Assembly: GCF_900142135.1 (NCBI RefSeq) | Contig: NZ_FQZU01000001.1 | Location: forward strand, 223,653 to 287,652 | Reading direction: 5' to 3' | From: Desulfatibacillum alkenivorans DSM 16219 | GTDB lineage: Bacteria; Desulfobacterota; Desulfobacteria; Desulfobacterales; Desulfatibacillaceae | Length of the DNA: 64,000 nucleotides | In this document: positions 8,618-51,233 of the stretch, piece by piece | Layout: each line of letters begins with the position of its first letter | Position numbering within the stretch: the stretch's first letter is position 1 | Translations under genes and position numbers: made by a program | Notes under the pieces: model-generated | What the model was told of the DNA's origin: nothing | Seen by the model: the letters and a program-made list of their open reading frames with translations, nothing else | Database searches by the model: none

Positions 8618-10171
8618 CTACATGAACAACCCGGCCTGCACGGGAAGCTGGCCTTTGCGGTCCAGGGTGCGGTACTGGATGGCTTCGGACACGTGGGAGG
8701 CCTGAATGTCCTGGACGCCTTCCATGTCGGCGATGGTGCGCGCGATCTTGAGGATGCGCTTGTACCCCCTGGCCGACAAGCCCAATTTGTCCACGGCGGC
8801 TTCCAGCAAGGACGAGCACGAAGGATCCACCTTGCAATAGGCTTTCATATGCCTGCCGTTCATCTGGGCGTTGCAGAATATTTTCGTGCGGGAGAACCTT
8901 CGGGACTGAACCTCCCGAGCCGCGGAAACCCTTGCCGCGATATCTGAGGATTTTTCCGCGTTGGCGTCGGTCATGAGTTCCTTGTAGGGTACGGTGGGAA
9001 CCTCCACGTGGATGTCTATCCTGTCCAGCAAGGGGCCTGACAAACGGGAGCGGTACCGCTGGATTTGGGCGTAAGTGCATGTGCAGGGGTGCCGCGGATC
9101 GGAGAAATATCCGCACGGACAGGGGTTCATGGCGCCCACCAGCATAAAACTGGCCGGATAGGTCAGGCTGGTTCGGGCCCGGGAAATGGTCACCTGCCTG
9201 TCCTCCAATGGCTGTCTGAGCACTTCCAGGACATGCTTTTTGAACTCCGGCATTTCATCCAGAAACAGGACCCCGTTATGGGACAGGCTGACTTCCCCCG
9301 GCCTGGGAACCATGCCGCCGCCAATAAGTCCTGCATCGGAGATGGTGTGATGGGGGGACCGGAAAGGCCTGCGGGCCACCAAAGCCTGGCCTTCGTTCAA
9401 CAGCCCGGACACGGAGTAGATTTTGGTGGTTTCCAGGGCCTCCTCAAAGGTTATGGGAGGCAATATGCCGGCCAGACGTTTTGCCAGCATGGTCTTGCCT
9501 GAGCCGGGCGGTCCGATCATGAGCACGTTGTGGCCGCCTGCGCACGCCACTTCCAGAGCCCTTTTTACATGATGCTGTCCGTGGACGTCCGTAAAATCCA
9601 GATCCTCGTCTCCGGTATTGGAAAAATAGGAGATGGCGTCCGTGGTGATTTCCTTGATTTTCTGCTCCCCCCGCAAAAAAGCGGCGGCCTGGGAAAGATT
9701 TTCCGCTCCGAACACCCGGATTCCCTTGACCACGGCGGCTTCCCGGGCGTTGCCCGCGGGCACGATAATAGCCTCCGTGGTATCCCTGGCCGCCAGGGCC
9801 ATGGGCAGGGAACCCCGGACGGGCTTTATCCTGCCGTCCAGGGCTAATTCGCCCAGGATCAGGTATTTGTCCAAGGCCTTTTTGGGGATGACCCCCGTGG
9901 CCGCCAGGATGCCTACGGCGATGGGAAGGTCAAAGCCGGTTCCTTCCTTCTTAAGGTCGGCGGGGGCCAGGTTGACCGTGATGTGATCTACAGGAAACCC
10001 GTATCCCGAATTGCCGATGGCCGCCTTGACCCGATCCTTGCTTTCCTTGACGGACGTCTCGGGAAGGCCTACAGTGGAAAAAAGGGGCAATCCGCTGGAG
10101 ATATCCACTTCCACTTCGACGACGGTGGCGTCAATACCAAGCACTGCACTGCTGAGAACGCGAGCTAGCAA
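8618..10171 (-). CDS. YifB/ComM-family Mg-chelatase-like AAA+ ATPase
   Basis: This 517-residue protein has the standard family layout: an N-terminal Lon-protease-like fold without protease activity (about 1-165, including GLPLFSTVGLPETSVKES and VNLAPADLKKEGTGFDLPIA), then an AAA+ core with Walker A GPPGSGKTMLAKRL and Walker B VLFLDEMPEF, and the Mg-chelatase C-terminal domain. ComM is a branch-migration helicase that aids integration of DNA during natural transformation. A TTG at 10171 is chosen as start because AAGGAG lies 6 nt upstream and the family begins LLARVLSSAVLGI; the longer frame from 10189 would place that site inside the gene. Convergent with the gene at 7678. Confidence 0.93.
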   Translation of the reverse strand: MLARVLSSAVLGIDATVVEVEVDISSGLPLFSTVGLPETSVKESKDRVKAAIGNSGYGFPVDHITVNLAPADLKKEGTGFDLPIAVGILAATGVIPKKALDKYLILGELALDGRIKPVRGSLPMALAARDTTEAIIVPAGNAREAAVVKGIRVFGAENLSQAAAFLRGEQKIKEITTDAISYFSNTGDEDLDFTDVHGQHHVKRALEVACAGGHNVLMIGPPGSGKTMLAKRLAGILPPITFEEALETTKIYSVSGLLNEGQALVARRPFRSPHHTISDAGLIGGGMVPRPGEVSLSHNGVLFLDEMPEFKKHVLEVLRQPLEDRQVTISRARTSLTYPASFMLVGAMNPCPCGYFSDPRHPCTCTYAQIQRYRSRLSGPLLDRIDIHVEVPTVPYKELMTDANAEKSSDIAARVSAAREVQSRRFSRTKIFCNAQMNGRHMKAYCKVDPSCSSLLEAAVDKLGLSARGYKRILKIARTIADMEGVQDIQASHVSEAIQYRTLDRKGQLPVQAGLFM

Positions 10172-10307
10172 GTTGGTCTCCTTGTTCAATTTTTAAAACG
10201 GATGGACTATCATAACAGAACCTGATAAAAATTCAAATATTTTTGTAATGTATTCGTAAAAAATTACATGATAGGTCATTTGTAGGCCGTAAATAAAGGA
10301 GGCGTTT

Positions 10308-10493
10308 ATGTTGTGCCAATCATGCAAGCGGGAAACCCCGGACGACGACGGCTGCCAATTGAATGGCAAATGGCTGTGTGAAAAGTGTGCATGGAAGCAG
10401 GGGCTTTTTCCCCTGAGCCACACCGGCGCCAGGCGGGATAAAATTTCGGAGCGGGGCCGGGTCCTTACTCCGCCGGAACCCGCAGGGAAATAA
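10308..10493 (+). CDS. small zinc-ribbon-like protein
   Basis: A 61-residue frame is preceded by a strong AAAGGAGG 7 nt before the ATG. It begins MLCQSCKRETP and continues LCEKCAWKQG, giving two CxxC pairs about 20 residues apart, spacing compatible with one bound zinc. The C-terminal half is polar and likely disordered. It lies in the space between yifB (divergent) and lpxC. The ribosome site and cysteine pattern support a real gene; no function can be assigned. Confidence 0.6.
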   Translation: MLCQSCKRETPDDDGCQLNGKWLCEKCAWKQGLFPLSHTGARRDKISERGRVLTPPEPAGK

Positions 10494-10730
10494 TGCCAAC
10501 GGCAGTCATCCTGGTAATTGCAATCTTGATTTCGAGGGGAGACGATACTTGTCTCAGTAGCTGCCTTGGCGTCTTTTTGAGAGATAAGTTCATGTCACCC
10601 GAAATCCGCCGGACGATAATGGGCGATCAACCAAAGTTGCGGGCGGTAATATCGGAAGAAAAAAGAGACCTCCATAAGGCTTGACCTGAATGAGAACAGG
10701 TGTTAAGTAGGGCTAGGTTTTTGTTTTTCT

Positions 10731-10871
10731 AAGGGTTTTACGCTTCTTGAACCCTTGAGCAGCCGTAAAGGCCGGAATTCGCCTTTGGCGAAAACAGCTC
10801 CCAAGGGAGCATAAAATATAGCAACAAACGCCTCTGAAAAGGCTTGAGACCGGGACTCAAATAAGGCCCGG
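10731..10871 (+). promoter_or_regulatory. hairpin-rich leader upstream of lpxC
   Basis: The 200 bp before lpxC contain several short inverted repeats: AAGGGTT/AACCCTT (10731-10737 with 10750-10756), AAAGGC/GCCTTT (10767-10772 with 10781-10786), TTCGCC/GGCGAA (10778-10783 with 10787-10792), GCTCCC/GGGAGC (10797-10810) and CCGGG/CCCGG (10850-10854 with 10867-10871). The second and third share bases and cannot form together. There is no clear Shine-Dalgarno close to the lpxC ATG. This suggests leader-mediated control, but it matches no riboswitch class I know. The stretch 10494-10730 shows no convincing gene. Confidence 0.4.
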
Positions 10872-10883
10872 CAATATAACATT

Positions 10884-11771
10884 ATGCAACGATATCAACA
10901 CACGGTAGCCGGCGAGGCCCGTTGTAAAGGAGTTGGGTTGCATTCCGGCAGGGAGGTGGAACTATCCATCAAACCTGCGCCGCCCAACCATGGAATCCGT
11001 TTTTCCCGCATTGACCTGCCTAATCGTCCAACCATTTGCGCAATTTTCAAAAATGTCGTGGATACAAGTTTGGCGACGGTCATCGGCGGGGAAGGGGCCA
11101 TCGTCTCCACCATCGAGCACCTGATGTCCAGCTTTGCAGGCCTGGGCGTGGACAACGCCCTTGTGGAGATCAATTCCTATGAACTGCCCATCCTGGACGG
11201 CAGCGCCGCCCCTTTCGCCCGCATGATCACAGAGGCGGGCCTTAAGGAACAGGATAGCCCCAGATATTATTTTATGGTGCGCCAGCCCATCCAGCTTGCG
11301 GAAAACGGACGGTCCGTGACCATTTATCCGGACGAGCAGGCGCGGGTGACGTGCAACATTGACTTTCCCCATCCGGCCATGGGCAAGCAAACGGTTTCCA
11401 TCACCCTTTCCGGAAACGCCTTTGAAGAAGACATCTGCCGGGCGCGGACCTTCGGGTTTCTTCACGAACTGGAGTTCATGAAGCAGTGCGGCCTGGCCAA
11501 AGGCGGAACCCTGGACAACGCCATTGTCCTGGATGAGGAAAAGGTGATCAACGAAGAAGGCCTGCGCTTTGAAGATGAGTTCGCCCGCCATAAACTTCTG
11601 GACTGTCTGGGCGACTTCTCCCTGCTGGGCATTCCCATCCTGGGGCACATCGTCACCCATAAGTCGGGCCACGCCTTTAATCATGCGTTTCTGGAAAAAT
11701 TCTTCCAGGAAAAAGACTGCTGGGAAACCACCACCCTCATCGCCCGGGAAAAAGCGGTCATGCAGGCCTAA
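10884..11771 (+). CDS. lpxC: UDP-3-O-acyl-N-acetylglucosamine deacetylase
   Basis: LpxC removes the acetyl group from UDP-3-O-acyl-GlcNAc, the first committed step of lipid A synthesis, in the cytoplasm. The product is 295 residues, normal for the family. The zinc ligands known from the Aquifex enzyme are all present: His79 in STIEHLMS, and His236 and Asp240 in RHKLLDCLGD. The catalytic His263 lies in SGHAFNHAF. The typical N-terminal GVGLHSG is at about 16-22. The gene stands alone rather than in the ftsZ/secA setting seen in enterobacteria. It follows an unusual hairpin-rich leader and lacks an obvious ribosome site. Confidence 0.97.
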   Translation: MQRYQHTVAGEARCKGVGLHSGREVELSIKPAPPNHGIRFSRIDLPNRPTICAIFKNVVDTSLATVIGGEGAIVSTIEHLMSSFAGLGVDNALVEINSYELPILDGSAAPFARMITEAGLKEQDSPRYYFMVRQPIQLAENGRSVTIYPDEQARVTCNIDFPHPAMGKQTVSITLSGNAFEEDICRARTFGFLHELEFMKQCGLAKGGTLDNAIVLDEEKVINEEGLRFEDEFARHKLLDCLGDFSLLGIPILGHIVTHKSGHAFNHAFLEKFFQEKDCWETTTLIAREKAVMQA

Positions 11772-41796: not shown

Positions 41797-42546
41797 CTAT
41801 TTGAGGCGCAGGGCCTTCTTTCTCAAAAGCTCATAGGTTTCTTCCACCTGAACGGGCAGCCTGTATTTCCCTCTGGAATGACTATGGATCAGATCCGGCA
41901 TGATGGAGCGAGCCGCGTTCGCAATCGCTTTTTCATCCACGCAAATTTCCAGGGCGGAAGCCAATTTTTCGATCTGAACTGCCGGGGCGCTGCACAGTTC
42001 TTCAAAGAGGACGATGACGTGCGGCGTTTCTCCCAAATGATGCATCACCTGCTGATAGTGCAACTCCCACAAGGCGCAGCATTTTTCCCGGGAATACCCG
42101 TTGCGCCGGGCCAGAGACCCAATGGCGTCCACGGGATTACGCACCATCACTATCGCTCTACACTCAACTTTTAAAGCGGACAGGGCGTTTTTCCACAGCG
42201 GCAATAGCAGGCAGGCCCTGGGGTCTTTAAAAGCCCAGAGGGGGCGGCCGGTAAAGACGTCCTCAACTTTGGCGATCAACTCCCGCTCCAGGTTTGGGGC
42301 CTGGGGCAGGGCGCCCCAATCGGGCGTGGGGGAGGGATCGTCCCAGGTTCTGCCCATGGACTGCAAGGCCTTGTCGTGGAATTCCATCAAGTCCCACCGC
42401 TCCCAGAAACCGGCGAGATTGTCCAGGGCCGGCCCCATGAGGTCTTCCTCCCGGCCCAGATAGGCGCCTAGCAGATTGACGATCCGGGCGGTCATGGAGG
42501 TTCCGCAGCGGTGCATGCCCAATATGGCGACGGCCCTGGATTTCAT
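41797..42546 (-). CDS. sulfotransferase-family protein
   Basis: This 249-residue cytoplasmic protein has the PAPS-binding loop ILGMHRCGTSMTARIV at its start and the 3'-phosphate site VMVRNPVDAIGSLARR (about 138-153), both typical of sulfotransferases that move sulfate from PAPS to a hydroxyl of a sugar or lipid. The ATG overlaps the wzt stop by 4 nt (ATGA), so it is the last gene of the glycan operon and probably decorates the exported glycan or its carrier. A minority of such proteins act as other nucleotide-dependent transferases, so sulfation is inferred. Confidence 0.82.
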   Translation of the reverse strand: MKSRAVAILGMHRCGTSMTARIVNLLGAYLGREEDLMGPALDNLAGFWERWDLMEFHDKALQSMGRTWDDPSPTPDWGALPQAPNLERELIAKVEDVFTGRPLWAFKDPRACLLLPLWKNALSALKVECRAIVMVRNPVDAIGSLARRNGYSREKCCALWELHYQQVMHHLGETPHVIVLFEELCSAPAVQIEKLASALEICVDEKAIANAARSIMPDLIHSHSRGKYRLPVQVEETYELLRKKALRLK

Positions 42547-43880
42547 GGTTTTTGAACCCGTTTCACGCTGACCCGTTCGCCGTCATTCAGGTGAACGCCG
42601 AAATCCATGATCCCTGTGGCCAACAGTCCGGGGAGCGGCGTGACCCGGAACATGACGGCGTCCACTATGCGATGCAGATATACGGAGTTTTCGTCTCCCA
42701 CGCTTTGGACGCCGGCGTTGATAAAATACACATTGGGCGTAAGCTGGCACTTGAACGCGAAGCGCAGGCGTAGCAGGGCGCCCTTTTCCACAAACTCCAG
42801 CGCGTCGCCCGCGCCATGGGAGACGGCGCCGCCCGCCTCCAGCCCGCTTTGCGTCTTGACCATCATGCCGAAGCGGACGTTTTTGGCGTCCTGGTCGAAC
42901 CGCACGTCATAGGTGTAAAAATAGTCCCTGCCTATAACCAGGTTGCCCACGGGCCTGCCGTCCCGGCCGATAATCCGCGGGTTGAGAATGCACGCGCCGT
43001 TGGGCTCATACACCCGGGGCTGATGAAAGCCGGCCAGTTCCTCCACCAGACGGTCGCCCTGGGCGGGAACCTGGGGTTCCGCGCAGTCGGCAATCCGGTC
43101 CAGGATGGTTTTCTGGTTTTCAAAGGACGAATTGGCAAACCGTTCGTATTCGCCCACAACAAAAGACGGCGCACCTTTCAGGATGATTTTCCCCCGCTCC
43201 ATCCACAGTGCCGTATGGCATAACTCCACAATGTTTTGCAGGGAATGGGAAACCAGGATGACCGTGCCGCCGTTGCGGCGGATCCGGTTGATCCGGGCGA
43301 AGCATTTCCTGCGGAAGGATTCGTCTCCCACGGCCAGGGTTTCGTCCACCACAAGGACGTCGGGATCGGCGTGGATTGCCACGGCGAAGGCCAGCCTGAC
43401 GTACATGCCGCTGGAATAGGTTTTCACCGGCCTGTGGATGAACTCCCCGATGCCGGCGAAGTCCAGGATGGCCGGCATTTTTTCGGCCATCTCCTCCCGG
43501 GAGTAACCCATGAACGCGCCGTTTATATAGGCGTTTTCCAGACCCGTGAACTCAGGGTCGAACCCCGCTCCCAGATCCAGGAGGGTGGAAACCCTGCCCC
43601 GCACCCGAACCTCTCCCTGAGTCGGCGTCATAATGCCGCAAATGATTTTTAGCAGGGTGGTCTTGCCTGAGCCGTTTCTGCCTACAATGCCCAGAGTTTC
43701 GCCTTTGGAGACGTCAAAACTCACGTTGTCCAGGGAGCGGAATTTTTCACCCGGTCTCAAGGGGGCTGGGACGAAACGGCGCAGAAATCCCGCCTTTTCA
43801 GGTCCGGACACCCTGAAATCCTTGCTAATCCCCTGTACGGAAACCGCAGGGGCCATATTTTTCGAGGCGTTATCGGGCAT
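42543..43880 (-). CDS. Wzt-type ABC transporter ATP-binding protein
   Basis: This 445-residue protein has an ABC ATPase domain (about 1-250) and a C-terminal beta-sandwich (about 280-440). The ATPase carries Walker A GRNGSGKTTLLK, the polysaccharide-exporter signature YSSGMYVRLAFAVA, and Walker B DVLVVDETLAVGD. The C-terminal domain is like Wzt carbohydrate-binding modules that recognise the finished O-antigen end (NVYFINAGVQSV region). It powers export of a lipid-linked polysaccharide across the inner membrane. The Wzm permease that must partner it is not in this operon or elsewhere in the window. It overlaps both neighbours (11 bp upstream, 4 bp downstream), a tight translational coupling. 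Confidence 0.92.
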   Translation of the reverse strand: MPDNASKNMAPAVSVQGISKDFRVSGPEKAGFLRRFVPAPLRPGEKFRSLDNVSFDVSKGETLGIVGRNGSGKTTLLKIICGIMTPTQGEVRVRGRVSTLLDLGAGFDPEFTGLENAYINGAFMGYSREEMAEKMPAILDFAGIGEFIHRPVKTYSSGMYVRLAFAVAIHADPDVLVVDETLAVGDESFRRKCFARINRIRRNGGTVILVSHSLQNIVELCHTALWMERGKIILKGAPSFVVGEYERFANSSFENQKTILDRIADCAEPQVPAQGDRLVEELAGFHQPRVYEPNGACILNPRIIGRDGRPVGNLVIGRDYFYTYDVRFDQDAKNVRFGMMVKTQSGLEAGGAVSHGAGDALEFVEKGALLRLRFAFKCQLTPNVYFINAGVQSVGDENSVYLHRIVDAVMFRVTPLPGLLATGIMDFGVHLNDGERVSVKRVQKP

Positions 43881-44913
43881 AGAGGCCTTTATAGATTGTC
43901 ATGACTGACCGGGCGATGTTTTTCCAATCAAATTCCAGGGCCCTTTTCCGGGCGGATTCAGCCATGGCGGCCAATAAATCCGGGCTGTCCTTAAAATCCA
44001 TTAGCGCGGTCAGGGCCTGTCCGGGGTCGGAAGGCGGAACAAAAACGCCGCAGGATGAGTCCATATAATCCCCCATGCCGCCCACGTCCGTTGCCGCCGC
44101 GGGCAGGCCGCAGGCCATGCCTTCCAACAACGTGTTGCTTGCCGTAAAATCCGTGACCGGCATGAGCAAAACGCTCGCGGATTGATACAGGCTGCGCAAG
44201 CGGGCATCCGGGACGCTGTGAAAAATTTTTACGTTTGGCGCCCCGTCAAAGTCCTTTATCCGGTCCTTTGGCAGAACCAGGTGAAAGCAAAGTCCTGACC
44301 GGCGCCTGCCGGCTTCCCGGATGACTTCCGCCAACAGGGAAAAGTCCCTTAGCCAGCTTCCTACGGCCAGCACGATGAATTTTTCCTCCACAGGCTTGGG
44401 AGCAGGCGTGAAAAAATCCGCATCCACGCCGTGGGGGATTACATGAACCTTATCCTCCCCGGCGACATCCTTCAGATAATCCCCCTGGCTGCGGCAGCAC
44501 GCCAGCACGGCGTCCGCTCTTCTGAGGGCCCTGGGATCGGGAAAAACCCTCTCAAAGACTTGAGGCGGCTGGTGCAGGCTGACAACGATCCTGGCGCCTT
44601 TCCGCCGGGGAAAACGCCCCGCCCATCGAAAGTCGTTTTCTCCGTACAGCCAGTGGTAAACGCCTCCGGCAAGGGTCATGGAGCCCATTGCCTGCAGTTC
44701 CTGTGCAAGCTGCCGGGGCCTCCAATACCAGGAGTAGGGGGGGGAATCCAGGCTGGCCTTGACGGCGCTGGAAGGCGTTCTTTTTAGAATGGACGTCAAT
44801 GCACGATGAATTGCAGGGGATAAAGGCCTGGAGCGGACGCGGCGGGCAAGCTGATCGTAGCCCGAGCGCCCGGCATGGTGTTGAATGCGCTCCCCAATGG
44901 TGACCACCCTCAC
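43870..44913 (-). CDS. family 4-like glycosyltransferase
   Basis: The product is 347 residues from a GTG at 44913, chosen because GGAGGGGGG lies 7 nt upstream and the protein then begins VRVVTIGERIQHH; an ATG 18 nt further up is in frame but unsupported. The GT-B fold is visible: VIPHGVDADFFTP, FIVLAVGSWLRDFSLLAEVI, and the donor site TDFTASNTLLEGMACGLPAAATDVGGM with the conserved E in LLEGMACGLP. It transfers a sugar from a nucleotide donor in the cytoplasm. It overlaps wzt by 11 bp. The unusual N-terminal half (WLYGENDFRWAGRF) gives no further clue to the sugar. Confidence 0.88.
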   Translation of the reverse strand: MRVVTIGERIQHHAGRSGYDQLARRVRSRPLSPAIHRALTSILKRTPSSAVKASLDSPPYSWYWRPRQLAQELQAMGSMTLAGGVYHWLYGENDFRWAGRFPRRKGARIVVSLHQPPQVFERVFPDPRALRRADAVLACCRSQGDYLKDVAGEDKVHVIPHGVDADFFTPAPKPVEEKFIVLAVGSWLRDFSLLAEVIREAGRRRSGLCFHLVLPKDRIKDFDGAPNVKIFHSVPDARLRSLYQSASVLLMPVTDFTASNTLLEGMACGLPAAATDVGGMGDYMDSSCGVFVPPSDPGQALTALMDFKDSPDLLAAMAESARKRALEFDWKNIARSVMTIYKGLYAR

Positions 44914-44936
44914 GGTCCGTCCCCCCTCCATAATCG

Positions 44937-46667
44937 TTAACGCAGGCCGCGCCCGGTCATTATACGGTAAAGCGCCTTTTTTTCAAGGCTTTGTATGGAG
45001 GCCTTTCCCTCAGGCTTGACTTGCAGCCCCTCCAGGGCCTCCCAGCCGGGCCGATGCTCCGCGGATTCCAGCCGGACCAATCCGTCTGCGTTCAATTCCA
45101 ACGCAATGACCTCGCCTTGTTTGACGGCCCGGGTTTCCCGGCCCTCTCCTGGAATTAGCAGGGTCCATGACTCTCCTCCCGGATCGGGTGCAATGCCCGC
45201 AATGATTTTTTCATTTAAAATAAACAGGGACGGGGGGGAGGTCCAGTCTTTGGGAAATTGAAACATTTGCTCCAGCACCAGCCGCACGGACCAAGCATTG
45301 GGAATCACAAAGTCCGACGTCGTCCTTATGTTTTCCTTGATAAAAATGGTGGTCCCGTCTTCCAGATCCGGGCAAAGCTGCAGGACTTCCCCCCATAATT
45401 TTCGCTGAAATTCTGAGCCGTTAACAAAATCCTTTTGCACGGCCAGAGAAAAGCCCAGCAGTAAAGCCAGATAAACTGCGACGGCCGCGGCCGCTGCAAG
45501 TTTAAGCCTGAACATGCCGGCTGTTTCCAGAATCATCCAAACCAGCCCGGTTATGACAATGGATGCGCCGAAGGTTGCAGCCAGGTGCACACAGGTGTCG
45601 CGTCCTCCCAGGCTTGTAGGCGGCCAGCGGGTGAAGGTTAGCACGTACGCCAGGCACAGGGCGAGAGCCCCGGCTATTAACAGCCTGCCGCCCGGCGCAA
45701 GCCCCCGCGGGATTTTGAGGCTGCCTTGCATTTTCAACCCGTGTTTTTCCGACAGGGCCGAAAAGGACAGGCTTTTCAGTTCCAAAGGCAAAGGAAGCCG
45801 CCAAAGCGCCCATCCCAAACCTCCGGCAAAGATCAGTCCGGAGGCCGCCATAAAGGCGTTTGCATGGCTCAGGGCGTAGCCGGGCCGGAGGATAAAGGCT
45901 TTTAGCACGGTCAGCGGCCCGATAACCATGGAGGCCGGAACATGGCCTGCAAGCAGCCAGGGACTGTTGCTGACAAGCTCCAGCATCCTGTGCTCGTGCA
46001 TGGAGGCTCTCAGCAAAGCGTGCCCCGTCATAAGAAGCGCTACGACGGCCGCTGTGGTTGCAAGCTCCTTGAGGGTTTTGCGGTTCCAGGGCGATTTTAG
46101 CAAAGGCGCGGCGACAAAGGGGACGATGGCGGTTTCGTAGCAGATCAGGGTTCCCGCGATTAATAGGTAGGAAATCCGTTTTTTGCCGCTTAAATAGGAG
46201 TAGACGGCGGCCAGCAAAAACATGAGCGAGGCCTGAAGCGCCATGTTATGCGTCAGCATGGCGTGGGTCGTATCCGCCGGAAACAGGCAAAACGCGCATG
46301 CGCCCGCCAAAGCCGGGCCGGGCGGCGCCATTTTTAAGGCGATGACGTAAAACAGCGCGGCGTTGCCTGCGATGAACAGGAATCCGAAAAAATACACCCA
46401 GGGCAGCCCGCCCATGTGCATTCCAAGGCCGGTAAGCACGGGCATGAGCGAAAAATGCAGGGGGCGCCCCTGAGGCCAGGCTTCCCACGCCCACTTCAGG
46501 AGATAGTATATTTCGTCCCACTCGCCGTTCAGGCTCCTGCCCACATGGGAGTAATCGTCTTCAAATAATAGAAAGTCCCGAACCCAGAAGAAATGCGCAA
46601 CCCAGGCGGTGAGCGCCAGCGCAAAAACAATCAACGAAGTTCGTTTATCGGGAATCCCAAGACGCAT
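44937..46667 (-). CDS. multi-spanning membrane protein, GT-C-like
   Basis: This 576-residue protein has about ten hydrophobic segments between residues 10 and 410, and a C-terminal soluble part of about 160 residues. The first outer loop carries FEDDYSH (about 35-41), in the place where GT-C glycosyltransferases (PMT/ArnT-like) have their acidic catalytic motif. That suggests a polyprenyl-phosphate-sugar-dependent transferase acting at the outer face of the inner membrane. The soluble tail (LFILNEKIIAGI, GEVIALELNADGLVRLE) is beta-rich and unassigned. No Shine-Dalgarno is evident. It sits between two cytoplasmic GT4 genes in the operon. Confidence 0.7.
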   Translation of the reverse strand: MRLGIPDKRTSLIVFALALTAWVAHFFWVRDFLLFEDDYSHVGRSLNGEWDEIYYLLKWAWEAWPQGRPLHFSLMPVLTGLGMHMGGLPWVYFFGFLFIAGNAALFYVIALKMAPPGPALAGACAFCLFPADTTHAMLTHNMALQASLMFLLAAVYSYLSGKKRISYLLIAGTLICYETAIVPFVAAPLLKSPWNRKTLKELATTAAVVALLMTGHALLRASMHEHRMLELVSNSPWLLAGHVPASMVIGPLTVLKAFILRPGYALSHANAFMAASGLIFAGGLGWALWRLPLPLELKSLSFSALSEKHGLKMQGSLKIPRGLAPGGRLLIAGALALCLAYVLTFTRWPPTSLGGRDTCVHLAATFGASIVITGLVWMILETAGMFRLKLAAAAAVAVYLALLLGFSLAVQKDFVNGSEFQRKLWGEVLQLCPDLEDGTTIFIKENIRTTSDFVIPNAWSVRLVLEQMFQFPKDWTSPPSLFILNEKIIAGIAPDPGGESWTLLIPGEGRETRAVKQGEVIALELNADGLVRLESAEHRPGWEALEGLQVKPEGKASIQSLEKKALYRIMTGRGLR

Positions 46668-46740
46668 TGAATTTTTATAAGAAGACTATGTAAGAATATT
46701 GAATAAGGGAACCTACAGATCCGGTCCCGCCAGGGAAAGA

Positions 46741-47943
46741 TTACCTGTCGAACAAAAGCTGATCCAAAATGTGTCCGACCTTTTTACTAAGTATTTTCCA
46801 ATCAAACTTCGTCGAGACGTAATCGTAGCCTTTTCTCCGCATCAGGCCTCGTAATTCCGGCTTTTTCAGCGTGTCCCAAATGGCCGTTGCAAAGTTATCC
46901 AGTTCGGAGATGACCACATGCTTTTCATTTTCCACGTCCAGGCCGCGGCATCCAAAGGGGGTGGAAACCGTGGGAATGCCCGCCGCCATGTAATCCAGCA
47001 TTTTAATGTTTACGCCGGAGCCTTTGGACATGGGATTTACCGCCAGGTCCGCCGCCCTCCAGTAATGCTCCAGGTAATCGTCGGTCAGGATGCCTGCAAA
47101 GCTCACGTTGTCCGGCGCCTGGCTGTCGGAAAAAGCATTGGTGACCGTGCCAACAATGACAAACTGGCAGGCGGTCAGTTTGGGCGCCAGACGGTTGACG
47201 ATGAAATCCACGGCCTGGATGTTGGGCTTGTAATAGGCGCCTACAAATAAAACGACCGGCTGCCTGGCGTAGCCAAGCTCTTCTCTGGCGGCCACCCGTT
47301 CTTTAAGGGACGGCAGGGGGGGGATGTCCGTCCCGTTTTCCACAATGGATATTTTACCCGGGTCCAGCTTGTATATGTCCACAAAAGCCTGTTTGTCTTC
47401 CTCGGAGCAGGCCAGGATGACTTTGGCCCGGCGGCAGAGGTCGCCTTCCAGGGCCTTGGTTTTGTGCGTCAGAATGGGCTTGAAAAGATTGCCTTCGGCC
47501 AGGGACCGCATCAACGTGTATTCGCAGTTGTGGGCGTCGTATATTACCGGAGAGTCGGTTCTGAATTTCAGGGTGTTCCAGGACCAGGGATGGCTGCAGA
47601 CTATTGCGTCGGCCGGCTGGCTTTCCAGGGCGTCCACGTAATGCTTGGCGTTATCGATGAAAAAATAGGTGTATGGATCGAAATTAAGGTTTTTAAACAG
47701 CCGCTCGTAAATCGGGAGCCAGTACTTGTAATAGGATTCGGGCATGGAAAAGCGCTTTTCAAAGAAATCCTCGCTGGCTTCAATGCCCTTGACCAGTTCG
47801 TATTGGCCCGTATCCACGCCCACATAGATAATGTCGTACTTGTGGGTCAGGTTGGAAAACAGTCCCCAGATCCTTTTGGGCCCGCCCCACATGGGAGGAT
47901 AAAGGGGGGCTGTGTCGCTTATGAGTATTTTCTTTCGGATCAT
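46741..47943 (-). CDS. family 4 glycosyltransferase
   Basis: This 400-residue cytoplasmic or membrane-peripheral glycosyltransferase has a GT-B fold. Visible elements are ISDTAPLYPPMWGGPKRIWG at the N-terminus, VIYDAHNCEYTLMRSL, a linker VENGTDIPPLP, VVLFVGAYYKPNIQAVDFI and the donor-binding end NPMSKGSGVNIKMLDYMAAGIPTVSTPFGCRGL, where the usual E-x7-E is partly replaced by K-M-L-D-Y-M. It is the third gene of the operon, 12 bp behind the radical SAM gene. Donor and acceptor sugars are unknown. Confidence 0.9.
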   Translation of the reverse strand: MIRKKILISDTAPLYPPMWGGPKRIWGLFSNLTHKYDIIYVGVDTGQYELVKGIEASEDFFEKRFSMPESYYKYWLPIYERLFKNLNFDPYTYFFIDNAKHYVDALESQPADAIVCSHPWSWNTLKFRTDSPVIYDAHNCEYTLMRSLAEGNLFKPILTHKTKALEGDLCRRAKVILACSEEDKQAFVDIYKLDPGKISIVENGTDIPPLPSLKERVAAREELGYARQPVVLFVGAYYKPNIQAVDFIVNRLAPKLTACQFVIVGTVTNAFSDSQAPDNVSFAGILTDDYLEHYWRAADLAVNPMSKGSGVNIKMLDYMAAGIPTVSTPFGCRGLDVENEKHVVISELDNFATAIWDTLKKPELRGLMRRKGYDYVSTKFDWKILSKKVGHILDQLLFDR

Positions 47944-47955
47944 GGCGTCTGTTGG

Positions 47956-49062
47956 TTACACGTTTCCAAAAGCAACGGCGGTCTTGCCGCCCGCCGCTTT
48001 TTTTGCCTGCGGCTTGATAATTTCCAGCCTGTCCAAAAGTTCCTGGTCTTTGTCAGGGCCGTCGAAAAAATTTTCCCGATTTCGAATGATTCCGCGAATT
48101 TTTTGAAAATAAACCGAATCCACTTTAAGGCGTTCGCCCAACCGGACGAAATCCGTCATTTCTTCCAAATTGCTGCGCATGACCGTGAAGTTAATAAAAA
48201 GCTGGGGAATCTTCCCCTGTGCTCTAAGATCGGACAGAAACTCCAGATTAGCGACGATGTCGTCCCATTTTCCCGGGGGCCTGACCTTTTCATAAGTATC
48301 CTTGGCGGCAGCATCAACCGATACATTAACATAACGGAACGCATTATGCTTGATTTTTTTCCACATTTTTGAATTAAAAAGCAGACCGTTCGTGAAAAGT
48401 GCAATTTCGGGCCTGACTCTTTTGTCCTTTGAAAACAAAATCTTACGTGTGTCAGGCCGAAAAAGGGGGTCTCCTGCGCCGCACAACCCAAGCACCTTGA
48501 GGTCCGGAAGCCCGTTCACAACGTCCCCGGAGATCCTTTCCAGGACGGCCATGTTTTCGCCTTCCATGATTTCCCGCTGCTTCTCCACGGCGCAATCAAA
48601 GGGCGCGTCGTTTCTGTTTTCAGTGTAAATATTGCGAAAGGGGCCGCACATGGGGCACTTCAGGTTGCAAGCCTCCAGGTTGGACATGAGCACATAGGTG
48701 GGCGAAGCGCTCATGCGCGTGCGCCCCGCCTGAATATCCTTGATATGCCGCTCAGTCAGGACAAAGAGTTTTTTCCCGGCGCCGTCCGTGGTCAGTTCCT
48801 TCCAACCCTCGCTAACCAGTGTGGGGCAGACGCCGGGCCGGCAGACGTCCTCCCATTCCCCGGCCAGCATTTTCCGTCTGATGTATTGGGCCGCATCGCT
48901 GTTCCAGATTTCCGTCAGGCTTTGGTTCTGCACATTGCCGATATACGGAGCCTTGGCCCATTCCACGCAGCAAAAGCTGACCTCGCCTCCGGGCTGAAGC
49001 TCCATGGTGGTGAAAGGGCGGATGCATCGCACACGGTTGTTTTTGAAGCCTGGTCCCGTCAT
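47956..49062 (-). CDS. radical SAM protein with N-terminal SPASM-like region
   Basis: This 368-residue enzyme has the [4Fe-4S]/SAM motif CNLKCPMC at residues 132-139 (CxxxCxxC). Before it, residues 10-80 carry further cysteines (13, 31, 32, 74, 79) in the setting GEVSFCCVEWAKAPYIGNVQNQSLTEIWNS, which is the SPASM signature normally found after the core. The order is therefore inverted. SPASM clusters usually serve peptide or protein modification and some sugar-modifying enzymes. The gene overlaps its upstream neighbour by 4 bp and lies 12 bp before a GT4 gene. It is probably a glycan- or peptide-modifying enzyme; the substrate cannot be read from sequence. Confidence 0.85.
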   Translation of the reverse strand: MTGPGFKNNRVRCIRPFTTMELQPGGEVSFCCVEWAKAPYIGNVQNQSLTEIWNSDAAQYIRRKMLAGEWEDVCRPGVCPTLVSEGWKELTTDGAGKKLFVLTERHIKDIQAGRTRMSASPTYVLMSNLEACNLKCPMCGPFRNIYTENRNDAPFDCAVEKQREIMEGENMAVLERISGDVVNGLPDLKVLGLCGAGDPLFRPDTRKILFSKDKRVRPEIALFTNGLLFNSKMWKKIKHNAFRYVNVSVDAAAKDTYEKVRPPGKWDDIVANLEFLSDLRAQGKIPQLFINFTVMRSNLEEMTDFVRLGERLKVDSVYFQKIRGIIRNRENFFDGPDKDQELLDRLEIIKPQAKKAAGGKTAVAFGNV

Positions 49063-51233
49063 GCGTTTTGTAAAGCCTCCTCAGTGACATGGCAGCTAAG
49101 GATTCGGCATGTCCGGGTGCAGGCGGCGATTTGCTTCCTGCGCTTTTCGGCTTCCGAAGATTTCCAGATGCGTTCCGGCGCGTCGTGGAGGATGTTGCCC
49201 ACAGGCGGCAGGTTCCAGCACAGCAGCACGTCTCCGTTATTTTTGATGATGAAGTTCTTCTCTCCCGAAAGGCATTGAAACCTGCGGCAAAAATCCCGGG
49301 GATCGGCGAAGTAGCGCTTCACGGCCTCCAACTGGGCCGGGCTGTTGTCTATGGGGGCGCCGCGGAGCTTCATGGCCCGCAGTTTGTCCATGGACCGGTT
49401 TAAAGCGTCCAGATCCTTGATCCAATAGGGATTGGAGGCGAACCACTGTGGATCGTATTTATTATGGAAATTCTGGTCCAAAGCCTGAAAGCTGATAAAG
49501 TCCGCGCCGCCCTTATACACGAACTCGGCCAGGGCAGGCAGTTCCTCCACATTGGGCGCCATGACAATGGTGGCCGCGCCTATGGAGAATTCCTTGTCCC
49601 TGTATCGCCTAAGCTCCTGCAAATGCTTTAAGGCCTTTATCGCTTTGGCGAAGGTTCCGGCCTTCCCGCGCATCCGGTCGTGCACTTCCGGGTGCAGGCT
49701 GTCCAGGGAAATGTGAATGGAGTCCAGGCCCGAATCCAGCAGCTTGCGCGCTCTGGCCTTGGTGATAAGCGCGCCGTTGGACAGCAAAATCGTTTCAACG
49801 CCCATGGCCGAAGCGTAGGCCGTGAGTTCGTCATTGTCCGGCCTCAGGAGGGGCTCGCCCCCGGCGATGTCCAGACGGTACGGCCCCAGCCAGTGAAAAA
49901 CCTTGTCGATTGCCTTACGCCATTGCTCGGCGGGAAGCTCCTCTTCCCTTTCCTGAGACCAGATGCCGCACATACGGCATTTCAACTGGCAGTTGTTCGT
50001 AAACTTCATGGAGACGATCCGGGGCAGGGCAGGGGAGGGCGGGGGAGCGTTTCTGGTTCGGGGCAGGGCGGCTTTGACGCGGTCCGCAGCCTTTTGCACC
50101 GGCTTTAAGACGCACCGGTACGACAAAGACTCCCGCAGAAGCCGCAACTCCTCTTCCCTTTGGATGACCAAATCCCGGAGCCGGTCGATCTCCGCGTATA
50201 ACCGGGATTCCACGTCCTGCAAGTCCAGCCGGGCGCGCTCCTTTTGCAACTCCAACTCCCTGGCCGCCTCCTTTTGATGGAGCATGGCTTTTCGGACCAG
50301 GGCGTCCTTTTGCGGGTCCAGCGCCTGGGCGAGTTTGATAAAAACATCGTCCAGGATTCGCCCGGCCTTTTCAGGGGGATGCTCGGCCAACAACTTGCCG
50401 CAGGCCTTGGAGGCGGCCGGGATAAAAGCCCGTTGCTTTTCGGGATCGGGCTGCAAGAAAAAACCCCGGCCGGTCAGATTTTCCGCCAGTTTTTCCGGCC
50501 AGTGTTTGGCGATGAGAAGCAGGCGATTGGACTCAATCAAAAGCCTGGCCTGGCTTTCGCCGGCTATTGAGCCATGGAAAAGGTGGCGCACCCGGCTTTG
50601 AGGCTGGCAGGCCAGAGACCATCCATGGTCCCGGCATCGCACGCCAAAATCCACATCTTCCACAAACATGTTAAAGTCTTCATCCAAAAGTCCTGCTTGG
50701 TCCAGGCATTCCCGGCGGTACATGGCGCACGCCCCGCACAGGCTGTCCGCCTCCATGAGAGCGTCCCCATACTGGCCCAGGTCCGGCTCCCCCATCCCGC
50801 GGTCCGTCCAGTAAAAATCAGGGCTTTTTATGTGGCCCAAACTTTGGATCATGCCGTCAAAATAAAGCAGCTTGGGCTGCACTCCCCCCAATCGAGGATT
50901 TTGCTCCATGGCCTCAGCCAGAGGCCGCAGCCAGCCGGGATCCATTTTCACGTCATTATTGAGCAGGATCACGTAATCGCCGGAGGAGTGCTTTATCCCT
51001 GCGTTATTGGCGGCCGCATAGTTGTTGGGCTGATGATCCAGGACCTTAACGTTCGGGAAGTTCTTTTTCAGGAATTCCTGAGAGCCGTCCGTGGAGCCGT
51101 TATCCACGCAAATGACTTCCAGGGCTTCTTTGGGCCAGTCCGTTTGCGCCAGGGAGGTAAAGCAGTCTTCAAGGAATTTGAGGCCGTTATAATTGACCAC
51201 GATAATGCTTACTTGGGGCGTATTGTTTTTCAT
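49059..51233 (-). CDS. GT2 glycosyltransferase fused to radical SAM/SPASM enzyme
   Basis: The product is 724 residues, in one uninterrupted frame. Residues about 7-245 form a rhamnosyltransferase-like GT2 domain (VSIIVVNYNGLKFLEDC, VDNGSTDGS, LLNNDVKMDPG, and FVEDVDFGVRCRDHGW). Residues about 310-370 are a charged coiled coil. Residues about 404-724 are a radical SAM domain with Cys415, Cys419 and Cys422 (CQLKCRMC), AGGEPLLR and SNGALIT, ending in a SPASM cysteine set (CRRFQC, LLCWN, CTRTCRILSC). I know no characterised protein with this fusion. It is the first gene of the operon, behind a strong promoter, and could couple sugar transfer with radical modification of the same glycan or carrier. 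Confidence 0.9.
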   Translation of the reverse strand: MKNNTPQVSIIVVNYNGLKFLEDCFTSLAQTDWPKEALEVICVDNGSTDGSQEFLKKNFPNVKVLDHQPNNYAAANNAGIKHSSGDYVILLNNDVKMDPGWLRPLAEAMEQNPRLGGVQPKLLYFDGMIQSLGHIKSPDFYWTDRGMGEPDLGQYGDALMEADSLCGACAMYRRECLDQAGLLDEDFNMFVEDVDFGVRCRDHGWSLACQPQSRVRHLFHGSIAGESQARLLIESNRLLLIAKHWPEKLAENLTGRGFFLQPDPEKQRAFIPAASKACGKLLAEHPPEKAGRILDDVFIKLAQALDPQKDALVRKAMLHQKEAARELELQKERARLDLQDVESRLYAEIDRLRDLVIQREEELRLLRESLSYRCVLKPVQKAADRVKAALPRTRNAPPPSPALPRIVSMKFTNNCQLKCRMCGIWSQEREEELPAEQWRKAIDKVFHWLGPYRLDIAGGEPLLRPDNDELTAYASAMGVETILLSNGALITKARARKLLDSGLDSIHISLDSLHPEVHDRMRGKAGTFAKAIKALKHLQELRRYRDKEFSIGAATIVMAPNVEELPALAEFVYKGGADFISFQALDQNFHNKYDPQWFASNPYWIKDLDALNRSMDKLRAMKLRGAPIDNSPAQLEAVKRYFADPRDFCRRFQCLSGEKNFIIKNNGDVLLCWNLPPVGNILHDAPERIWKSSEAEKRRKQIAACTRTCRILSCHVTEEALQNA

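Follow-up and report, generated by a model that had tools for sequence, protein, structure and literature searches.

The window analysed here is a 64,000-nucleotide stretch of the Desulfatibacillum alkenivorans DSM 16219 genome, in which seven genes lie on one strand and either overlap or are separated by gaps of at most 73 bases. The first of these, predicted to open an operon, is a single 724-codon frame on the minus strand (49059-51233). It codes for a protein of 724 aa comprising a GT2 domain, a helical spacer and a radical SAM/SPASM part; frame 1 of the plus strand is interrupted by stops over the same interval. The Pfam domain matches of this fusion protein all exceed the curated cut-offs.

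The GT2 domain (PF00535, E 3.8e-28) occupies residues 9-178 (50700..51209, minus strand) and scores 99 bits against a cut-off of 23.3, which places it among the GT2 glycosyltransferases. The motif VDNGSTD begins at residue 43 and NNDVKMD at residue 92. Residues D44, N92, D94, E192, D193 and H217 are found in all 32 aligned rows and D195 in 31 (window included). The radical SAM domain (PF04055, E 6.8e-25) spans residues 409-558 (49560..50009, minus strand) and has the CxxxCxxC motif (Cys415/419/422), the GGE motif and the fold of the radical SAM superfamily. The initial annotation had described one continuous 724-residue frame with complete motifs for both enzymes, naming no strand, and the positions that it gave are correct.

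A SPASM-like domain is present at the C-terminus (residues 654-714; 49092..49274, minus strand), where PF13186 matches with E 1.3e-5 and 25.8 bits against a cut-off of 21.5. The canonical SPASM motif has seven cysteines and binds two auxiliary clusters. This motif is absent from the fusion, which has five conserved cysteines (654/672/705/709/714) in the order C-x12-G-x4-C then C-x3-C-x4-C; the earlier assignment of a SPASM domain thus holds for the Pfam family but not for the canonical motif. Cys714 is a candidate extra cysteine, missing from the aligned stand-alone relatives L105, L106 and L108. No named radical SAM or GT family reaches its curated cut-off among the best 25 of 67 NCBIfam models, the top one being NirJ2 with 110.9 bits of 500.

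The helical spacer covers residues 301-368 (50130..50333, minus strand), and its length varies among relatives. It is followed by an amphipathic basic motif beginning SLSYRCVLKPV, a putative membrane contact (residues 369-392; 50058..50129, minus strand), defined by a pattern picked post hoc from the sequences. AlphaFold predicts one helix at residues 307-389 with low to medium confidence. The spacer had been read as a coiled coil; the helix is consistent with this, but heptad periodicity was not significant in a shuffle test of four proteins out of four (window, L009, L031 and L084, with windows of 42, 56 and 70 residues; L010 was left out because of Ns). By hydrophobic moment the amphipathic stretch ranks within the top 0.1-1.7% of windows in each of five proteins, although it had been selected as the best of 40. 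The full-length AlphaFold model is poor (pLDDT 61, pTM 0.39) and therefore says nothing about domain contacts, so the structure prediction proposed for the domain interface was uninformative. Modelled alone, the radical SAM part gave pLDDT 64 and pTM 0.67, with the SPASM end under 50.

The same unbroken frame is found in Desulfatibacillum MAG7 (L009, 71-73% identity depending on method) and in genome G006 (L013/L031, 44-45% identity). Since the frame recurs in these genomes, chance and a frameshift are excluded, and a missed stop codon between the two domains, raised earlier as a possible refutation, is ruled out. In genome G003 (42-44% identity) the frame is broken at an assembly gap of Ns. 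The fusion is under purifying selection: between the window and L009, NG86 gives dN/dS values of 0.129 (GT2 part), 0.136 (spacer) and 0.131 (radical SAM part), dS exceeding 1 and therefore being saturated, and YN00 gives 0.073 for the radical SAM part. One in-frame TGA was flagged as possible selenocysteine in each of G003 and G006. This reading was rejected for both: the position of the TGA in G006 is that of the frame's own terminal stop, and the stop in G003 sits at the assembly gap.

The remaining genes of the cassette are also on the minus strand. The second encodes another radical SAM protein (47956..49062), with an N-terminal SPASM/twitch domain (N-twitch), and its start overlaps the stop of the fusion gene (ATGA). 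It is followed by a GT4-type glycosyltransferase identified with Pfam (GT4a, 46741..47943), a 576-aa protein that resembles a membrane protein by eye and has no Pfam or NCBIfam match (44937..46667, conserved in L009), and a second Pfam-identified GT4-type glycosyltransferase (GT4b, 43870..44931, conserved in L009 and G003). Next is Wzt (42543..43880), the ATPase of a polysaccharide ABC exporter, with a Wzt_C carbohydrate-binding domain (PF14524, E 5.3e-27) that is the sole Wzt_C match in the genome; no Wzm adjoins it. The last gene encodes a sulfotransferase-like protein (41797..42546; PF13469 and PF00685 above cut-off), conserved in L009, G003 and G006. MAG7 keeps the order of the cassette genes.

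The GT2-spacer module is found in 32 proteins with extended loci (window included), which are a subset of all matches; several loci end at a contig edge. Pfam scans cover all except 11 of these (L009, L032, L088, L092, L094, L098, L128, L129, L133, L134 and L135), and for two of these 11, L009 and L032, the assignment to the window's own domains comes from phmmer. Wzt is directly upstream of the GT2-spacer gene in 16 of the 32 loci, elsewhere in the locus in eight and not seen in eight; genome G201 has no Wzt_C match whatever. The same module is followed by radical SAM in nine proteins and by GT4 in four, a case of domain shuffling. In 14 loci no radical SAM gene was seen beside the GT2-spacer gene, and only one of these (L031) has a fused radical SAM domain. 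The module is therefore associated with Wzt more than with radical SAM. Spacer length is 53-632 residues in those eight of the 32 proteins where the end motif was located, by a pattern chosen after the sequences had been seen.

In Omnitrophota the same module carries one or two radical SAM domains. L084 has a GT2-rSAM1 protein and a separate, adjacent rSAM2, while L010 has GT2-rSAM1-rSAM2 in one frame; rSAM3-GT4a forms a single frame in both L010 and L132. In the largest versions (L095, L096 and L097) the radical SAM domains come behind a GT4 and an additional GT2. Related stand-alone radical SAM proteins have neighbours that resemble, by eye, glycosyltransferases, flippases and rml genes.

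Nine genomes of the family were compared. The fusion (E 1e-45), the N-twitch radical SAM protein (1e-15) and GT4a (1e-40) are all present in G000, G001, G003 and G006, and all absent from G002, G004, G005, G007 and G008. As the nine genomes represent five genera and the four positives only two, these are not nine independent tests. At E 1e-40 GT4a is found in eight of 13 genomes, namely the four family genomes with the system and all four Omnitrophota genomes tested, which also have it, and in none of the five family genomes that lack it. The fused genes of G006 and G003 are not on the contigs that carry the cassette pieces.

The initial annotation had suggested that both activities act in turn on one molecule, or that the substrate is positioned by the GT domain. 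Of this only a single shared pathway is supported, because the predicted operon is kept in MAG7 and the fusion occurs in two phyla, because the radical SAM domains are fused in L010 and adjacent in L084, and because the three proteins co-occur across the nine genomes.

The cassette includes a Wzt with Wzt_C, two GT4s and a sulfotransferase, in an order kept in MAG7. Further points in favour are the co-occurrence of the three proteins, the many loci with a Wzt, the domain shuffling, the separate and fused versions of the radical SAM domains, the neighbours of the stand-alone radical SAM proteins, and the known terminators and sugar-acting radical SAM enzymes described below. We therefore propose, with a probability of about one half, that the fusion takes part in assembling a surface polysaccharide of the ABC-transporter-dependent kind, in which GT2 caps and radical SAM edits the growing sugar chain. 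The layout suggests that GT2 is distal on the spacer, in the capping position, and that the radical SAM domain is membrane-proximal. From the distal tip of the spacer the N-terminal GT2 would add a sugar that is most likely the cap, and the amphipathic motif may keep the spacer base at the membrane. Using SAM and Fe-S clusters, the radical SAM/SPASM domain would abstract hydrogen from one of the sugars in the lipid-linked chain as it grows; epimerisation or oxidation of that sugar is the most plausible outcome. We infer that the Wzt_C domain recognises the finished, modified chain end, which would be exported with a Wzm encoded elsewhere; a Wzm-like permease of the genome (G000:C21) is a candidate.

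Known coiled-coil terminator and polymerase proteins of O-antigen assembly by the ABC-transporter route (WbdD, WbbB and Klebsiella pneumoniae O7 ORF6) have an amphipathic helix and a CBM-bearing Wzt (PMC11231755). The fusion resembles them, as far as the available text of that paper describes them, in its N-terminal catalytic domain, predicted helical spacer, putative amphipathic region and optional C-terminal enzyme modules, and it resembles the WbdD/WbbB type in having a partner Wzt with a carbohydrate-binding C-terminal domain in the same gene row. It differs in having radical SAM/SPASM at the C-terminal place and GT2 at the N-terminus, and in its heptad periodicity, which was not significant. 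That text names methyl, methyl-phosphate and Kdo as caps and puts GT2 modules in the polymerase (O7), not in terminators. The WbdD/WbbB type is further characterised by a spacer whose length governs that of the glycan and by an end residue that export requires.

These differences in caps and in the role of GT2 weigh against the glycan-assembly reading. So do the heptad result, the choice of the amphipathic stretch as best of 40, the loci in which Wzt was unseen, the lack of a Wzm beside the window's Wzt, the closer tie of GT2-spacer to Wzt than to radical SAM, the division of the G006 and G003 pieces among contigs, the poor full-length model, the peptide maturases and viperin among the nearest folds and sequences, and the small number of genera behind the co-occurrence.

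NeoN is a radical SAM epimerase that acts on a sugar already in a glycoside (PMC10991966). Like NeoN, DesII and BlsE the fusion is a CxxxCxxC radical SAM enzyme, but these are stand-alone enzymes of antibiotic pathways, and the similarity in fold or sequence is weak. For the hydrogen-donor cysteine of NeoN, Cys714 is at most a candidate counterpart. Foldseek with the modest radical SAM model retrieved radical SAM enzymes in general; its nearest PDB entries by fold and sequence are sugar-acting enzymes (DesII and BlsE) but also peptide maturases (SuiB, SkfB and PqqE) and viperin, so that a sugar substrate cannot be read from the fold.

Since DesII, BlsE and viperin act on nucleotides or nucleotide-linked sugars, the radical SAM domain could instead make a precursor, such as a modified nucleotide sugar, for GT2 to transfer, the fusion channelling the donor. 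This agrees with the earlier idea of action in sequence, and we regard it as possible though rather unlikely. The variable spacer and the placement of radical SAM domains after a second GT2 and GT4 in L095, L096 and L097 fit chain modification better than a single donor-transferase pair.

It is improbable that the spacer and fusion are a mere membrane scaffold for independent enzymes, the radical SAM acting on the lipid carrier or anchor. The stand-alone radical SAM proteins of L105 and L106 adjoin genes that resemble, by eye, LpxL-type acyltransferases and B12-type radical SAM proteins, but that of L034 is beside rml-like genes (by eye) with a GT2-like gene next, and a Pfam scan of eight proteins on the cassette side recognised no acyltransferase.

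In mycofactocin biosynthesis a radical SAM/SPASM protein (MftC) and a GT2 (MftF) act in one pathway, as separate proteins, on a peptide-derived cofactor. The fusion, which has both activities in one protein, might likewise be a peptide or protein maturase with a glycosylated peptide as product; SuiB, SkfB and anSME are among its nearest folds, and its GT2 part matches the MftF model weakly, with 78.7 bits against a cut-off of 280. This seems very unlikely, as no maturase model reaches its cut-off among the best 25 of 67 and the gene has Wzt_C, GT4 and sulfotransferase genes around it. A sequencing error joining two genes has no point in its favour and is already refuted by the unbroken frame in two other genomes and the low dN/dS, in the spacer too.

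Radical SAM genes adjoin glycosyltransferase genes, as here, in the surface-polysaccharide loci of a Brachyspira plasmid (PMC4267127) and the Campylobacter jejuni HS:19 capsule cluster (PMC8743553), but as separate genes, and the available text of these papers describes no fusion and assigns them no role by experiment. No description of a GT2-radical SAM fusion of this kind was found among the open-access papers that the searches listed. Under the chain-editing reading, radical chemistry would add diversity to bacterial surface sugars at the level of the chain and not of nucleotide precursors. More tentatively, the Thermodesulfobacteriota and Omnitrophota proteins may form a class of ABC-transporter glycan assembly proteins, with at least one radical SAM/SPASM domain built into the terminator or polymerase for C-H editing during synthesis. 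The fusion and conserved gene row offer a concrete enzyme pair for testing, and the variable spacers and several-domain versions of Omnitrophota a natural series.

The in-depth searches covered genomes of Thermodesulfobacteriota and Omnitrophota, and two of them scored only 3 and 2 candidates per genome. An exact 8-residue pattern scan of genome contigs, which detects close kin only, found three relatives among 60 stretches. No relative was found in the viral contigs searched, nor in the plasmids searched at 1e-30; the phages searched gave two partial matches, to GT2 only, at 1e-20. For the origin of the fused radical SAM domains, a group of five rows needs three changes, a number as low in 6 of 500 shuffles, and this is compatible with one origin.

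The gene at 49059-51233 on the minus strand is a single frame of 724 codons, and the GT2 motifs and the radical SAM cysteines (Cys415/419/422) lie where the initial annotation placed them. The GT2 and radical SAM matches are far over the Pfam cut-offs, the SPASM match is modestly so. A frameshift between two separate genes would make the fusion an artefact, this is rejected because the same architecture occurs in one unbroken frame in Desulfatibacillum MAG7 (71-73% identity) and in genome G006 (44-45%). The relative in G003 (42-44% identity) has its radical SAM part interrupted by an assembly gap of Ns. Between the window protein and its MAG7 relative (L009), dN/dS (NG86) is 0.129 for the GT2, 0.136 for the spacer and 0.131 for the radical SAM part, with dS above 1 and hence saturated. 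The spacer had been described as a coiled coil, a canonical one was not evident in a heptad test, and the full-length structural model is too weak to give contacts at the domain interface. The nearest folds to the radical SAM part include peptide maturases, viperin, and also DesII and BlsE; these neighbours are of mixed kinds and the fold therefore does not fix the substrate.

The own genome contains 17 matches to the fusion protein, and only the window's own covers both ends. Full-length matches are found in 4/96 genomes (own genome included), in 3/395 genomes sampled evenly across the phylum, and in four of the nine family genomes.

Downstream of the fusion, on the same strand, are genes for an N-twitch radical SAM protein, GT4a, a 576-residue protein, GT4b, a Wzt with a Wzt_C domain and a sulfotransferase, neighbours overlapping or being separated by at most 73 bases. 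This seven-gene order is kept in MAG7. The 576-residue protein (44937-46667) has no Pfam or NCBIfam family match; it is conserved in MAG7. The fusion, the N-twitch protein and GT4a (thresholds 1e-45, 1e-15 and 1e-40) occur together in the same four family genomes, which represent two genera, and are all absent from the same five. G003 has the fusion, the N-twitch gene and a row GT4a-GT4b-Wzt-sulfotransferase on three contigs; G006 has the fusion, an N-twitch-GT4a pair and Wzt-sulfotransferase, again on three, so these two genomes speak for co-occurrence only. GT4a is present in all four Omnitrophota genomes tested, the N-twitch protein in none of them at 1e-15. Genes resembling lpxC and comM by eye stand near the MAG7 cassette; in the window the lookalikes (8618-11771) are 30 kb from the cassette (41797-51233).

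The first 300 residues form the GT2 module, which includes a helical extension that is also conserved, and the spacer comes after. Among 32 aligned GT2-spacer proteins, window included, D44, D94, E192 and D193 never vary, and 31 of the proteins have D195. The motif that marks the end of the spacer has the approximate form S-x-S/G-Y-R/K-x-L/V-L/V-R/K-P-L/V and is followed by a basic amphipathic stretch. This pattern, chosen post hoc from sequences already seen, matches 8/32 proteins, with spacers of 53 (L009), 68 (window), 102 (L085), 132 (L095), 165 (L084), 167 (L010), 227 (L096) and 632 (L131) residues. It misses L031 (in G006), whose motif is at residue 405, and L090, where a similar one can be recognised by eye at the extreme end of the protein. 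A radical SAM domain comes after the module in nine proteins (window, L009, L010, L031, the gapped L032, L084, L095, L096 and L097), in L095, L096 and L097 only after further GT domains. In four others (L101-L104) a GT4 comes after it; these belong to other genomes of the phylum (G508, G677, G712 and G717), where the GT4 is in the place of the radical SAM. The remaining 19 have long helical or unassigned tails, reach a contig end, or (L131) carry a further GT2 and a partial GT4. The L095, L096 and L097 proteins are large Omnitrophota proteins of 1532, 2077 and 2163 residues; in these, and in a 1781-residue Omnitrophota protein that runs past its locus edge (L100:8659-14001), GT2, GT4 and at least one radical SAM or SPASM domain share one chain.

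The Wzt gene is immediately upstream of the GT2-spacer gene in 16 of these 32, elsewhere in the locus in eight and not seen in eight, and 14/32 loci showed no radical SAM gene next to that of the GT2-spacer protein. By these counts the GT2-spacer module goes primarily with Wzt, and radical SAM with part of the family only. Wzt_C has a single match in the own genome. Family genomes with the fusion have Wzt_C at 78.7-96.5 bits (G006 has a second at 50.2), those without it have matches of only 39.4-57.4 bits, or none (G002); among the four Omnitrophota genomes, G201 has no match. No Wzm adjoins the Wzt of the window. A Wzm-like permease without an adjoining Wzt, at about 20 kb of G000:C21 in the own genome, is a candidate partner only.

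The accessible text of PMC11231755 describes ABC-transporter-dependent O-antigen assembly in which a coiled-coil ruler bears the terminating enzymes at its distal tip and is anchored to the membrane at its other end by an amphipathic helix, possibly with further GT modules after it, and the carbohydrate-binding domain of Wzt takes finished chains only. The window protein and its cassette have parts that may correspond to those described there. The window protein differs in the radical SAM/SPASM domain at what would be its membrane-proximal end, and in its GT2, the terminators named in that text not being GT2s. NeoN, in the part of PMC10991966 available, is a radical SAM enzyme that turns neomycin C into B, with Cys249 the reported hydrogen donor; it shows that a radical SAM enzyme can act on a sugar inside a finished glycoside. 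By analogy with this layout and the NeoN precedent, we propose that the GT2 may cap a sugar chain, the spacer may hold the two domains apart and the radical SAM domain may edit the chain, both substrate and reaction being putative. The fusion protein may also contact the membrane. Radical SAM genes adjoin glycosyltransferase genes in Brachyspira (PMC4267127) and C. jejuni HS:19 (PMC8743553), according to the available portions of these papers, and searches of open-access papers listed none on a GT2 fused to a radical SAM domain. The proposed assembly strategy is already known; the enzymatic module would be new.

The window order is GT2-spacer-rSAM2, N-twitch rSAM (radical SAM), GT4a. In L010 (Omnitrophota) GT2-spacer-rSAM1-rSAM2 forms one frame of 1256 residues and rSAM3 fused to GT4a comes next, rSAM3-GT4a being one frame also in L132, which includes a B12-type rSAM (PF02310). 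In L084, GT2-spacer-rSAM1 is followed by rSAM2 and GT4a as genes of their own, with a B12-type rSAM between them; L099, which a contig end truncates, has spacer-like repeats, rSAM1, rSAM2 and then GT4a. That the same neighbours occur both fused and split argues for their products working jointly. In a tree of 49 rSAM domains the five fused ones fall in a 13-member group with eight stand-alone relatives, split from 36 array members with support 100/99; on this tree the fusion may have arisen once or more than once. The arrays (L109, L110, L111 and L136, in Omnitrophota G163, G190, G245 and G146) consist of 7-10 radical SAM/SPASM paralogues placed head-to-tail, mostly of 320-365 residues. Several clades contain one array member per genome from three or four of these genomes, with array order kept, and the array is therefore old and colinear.
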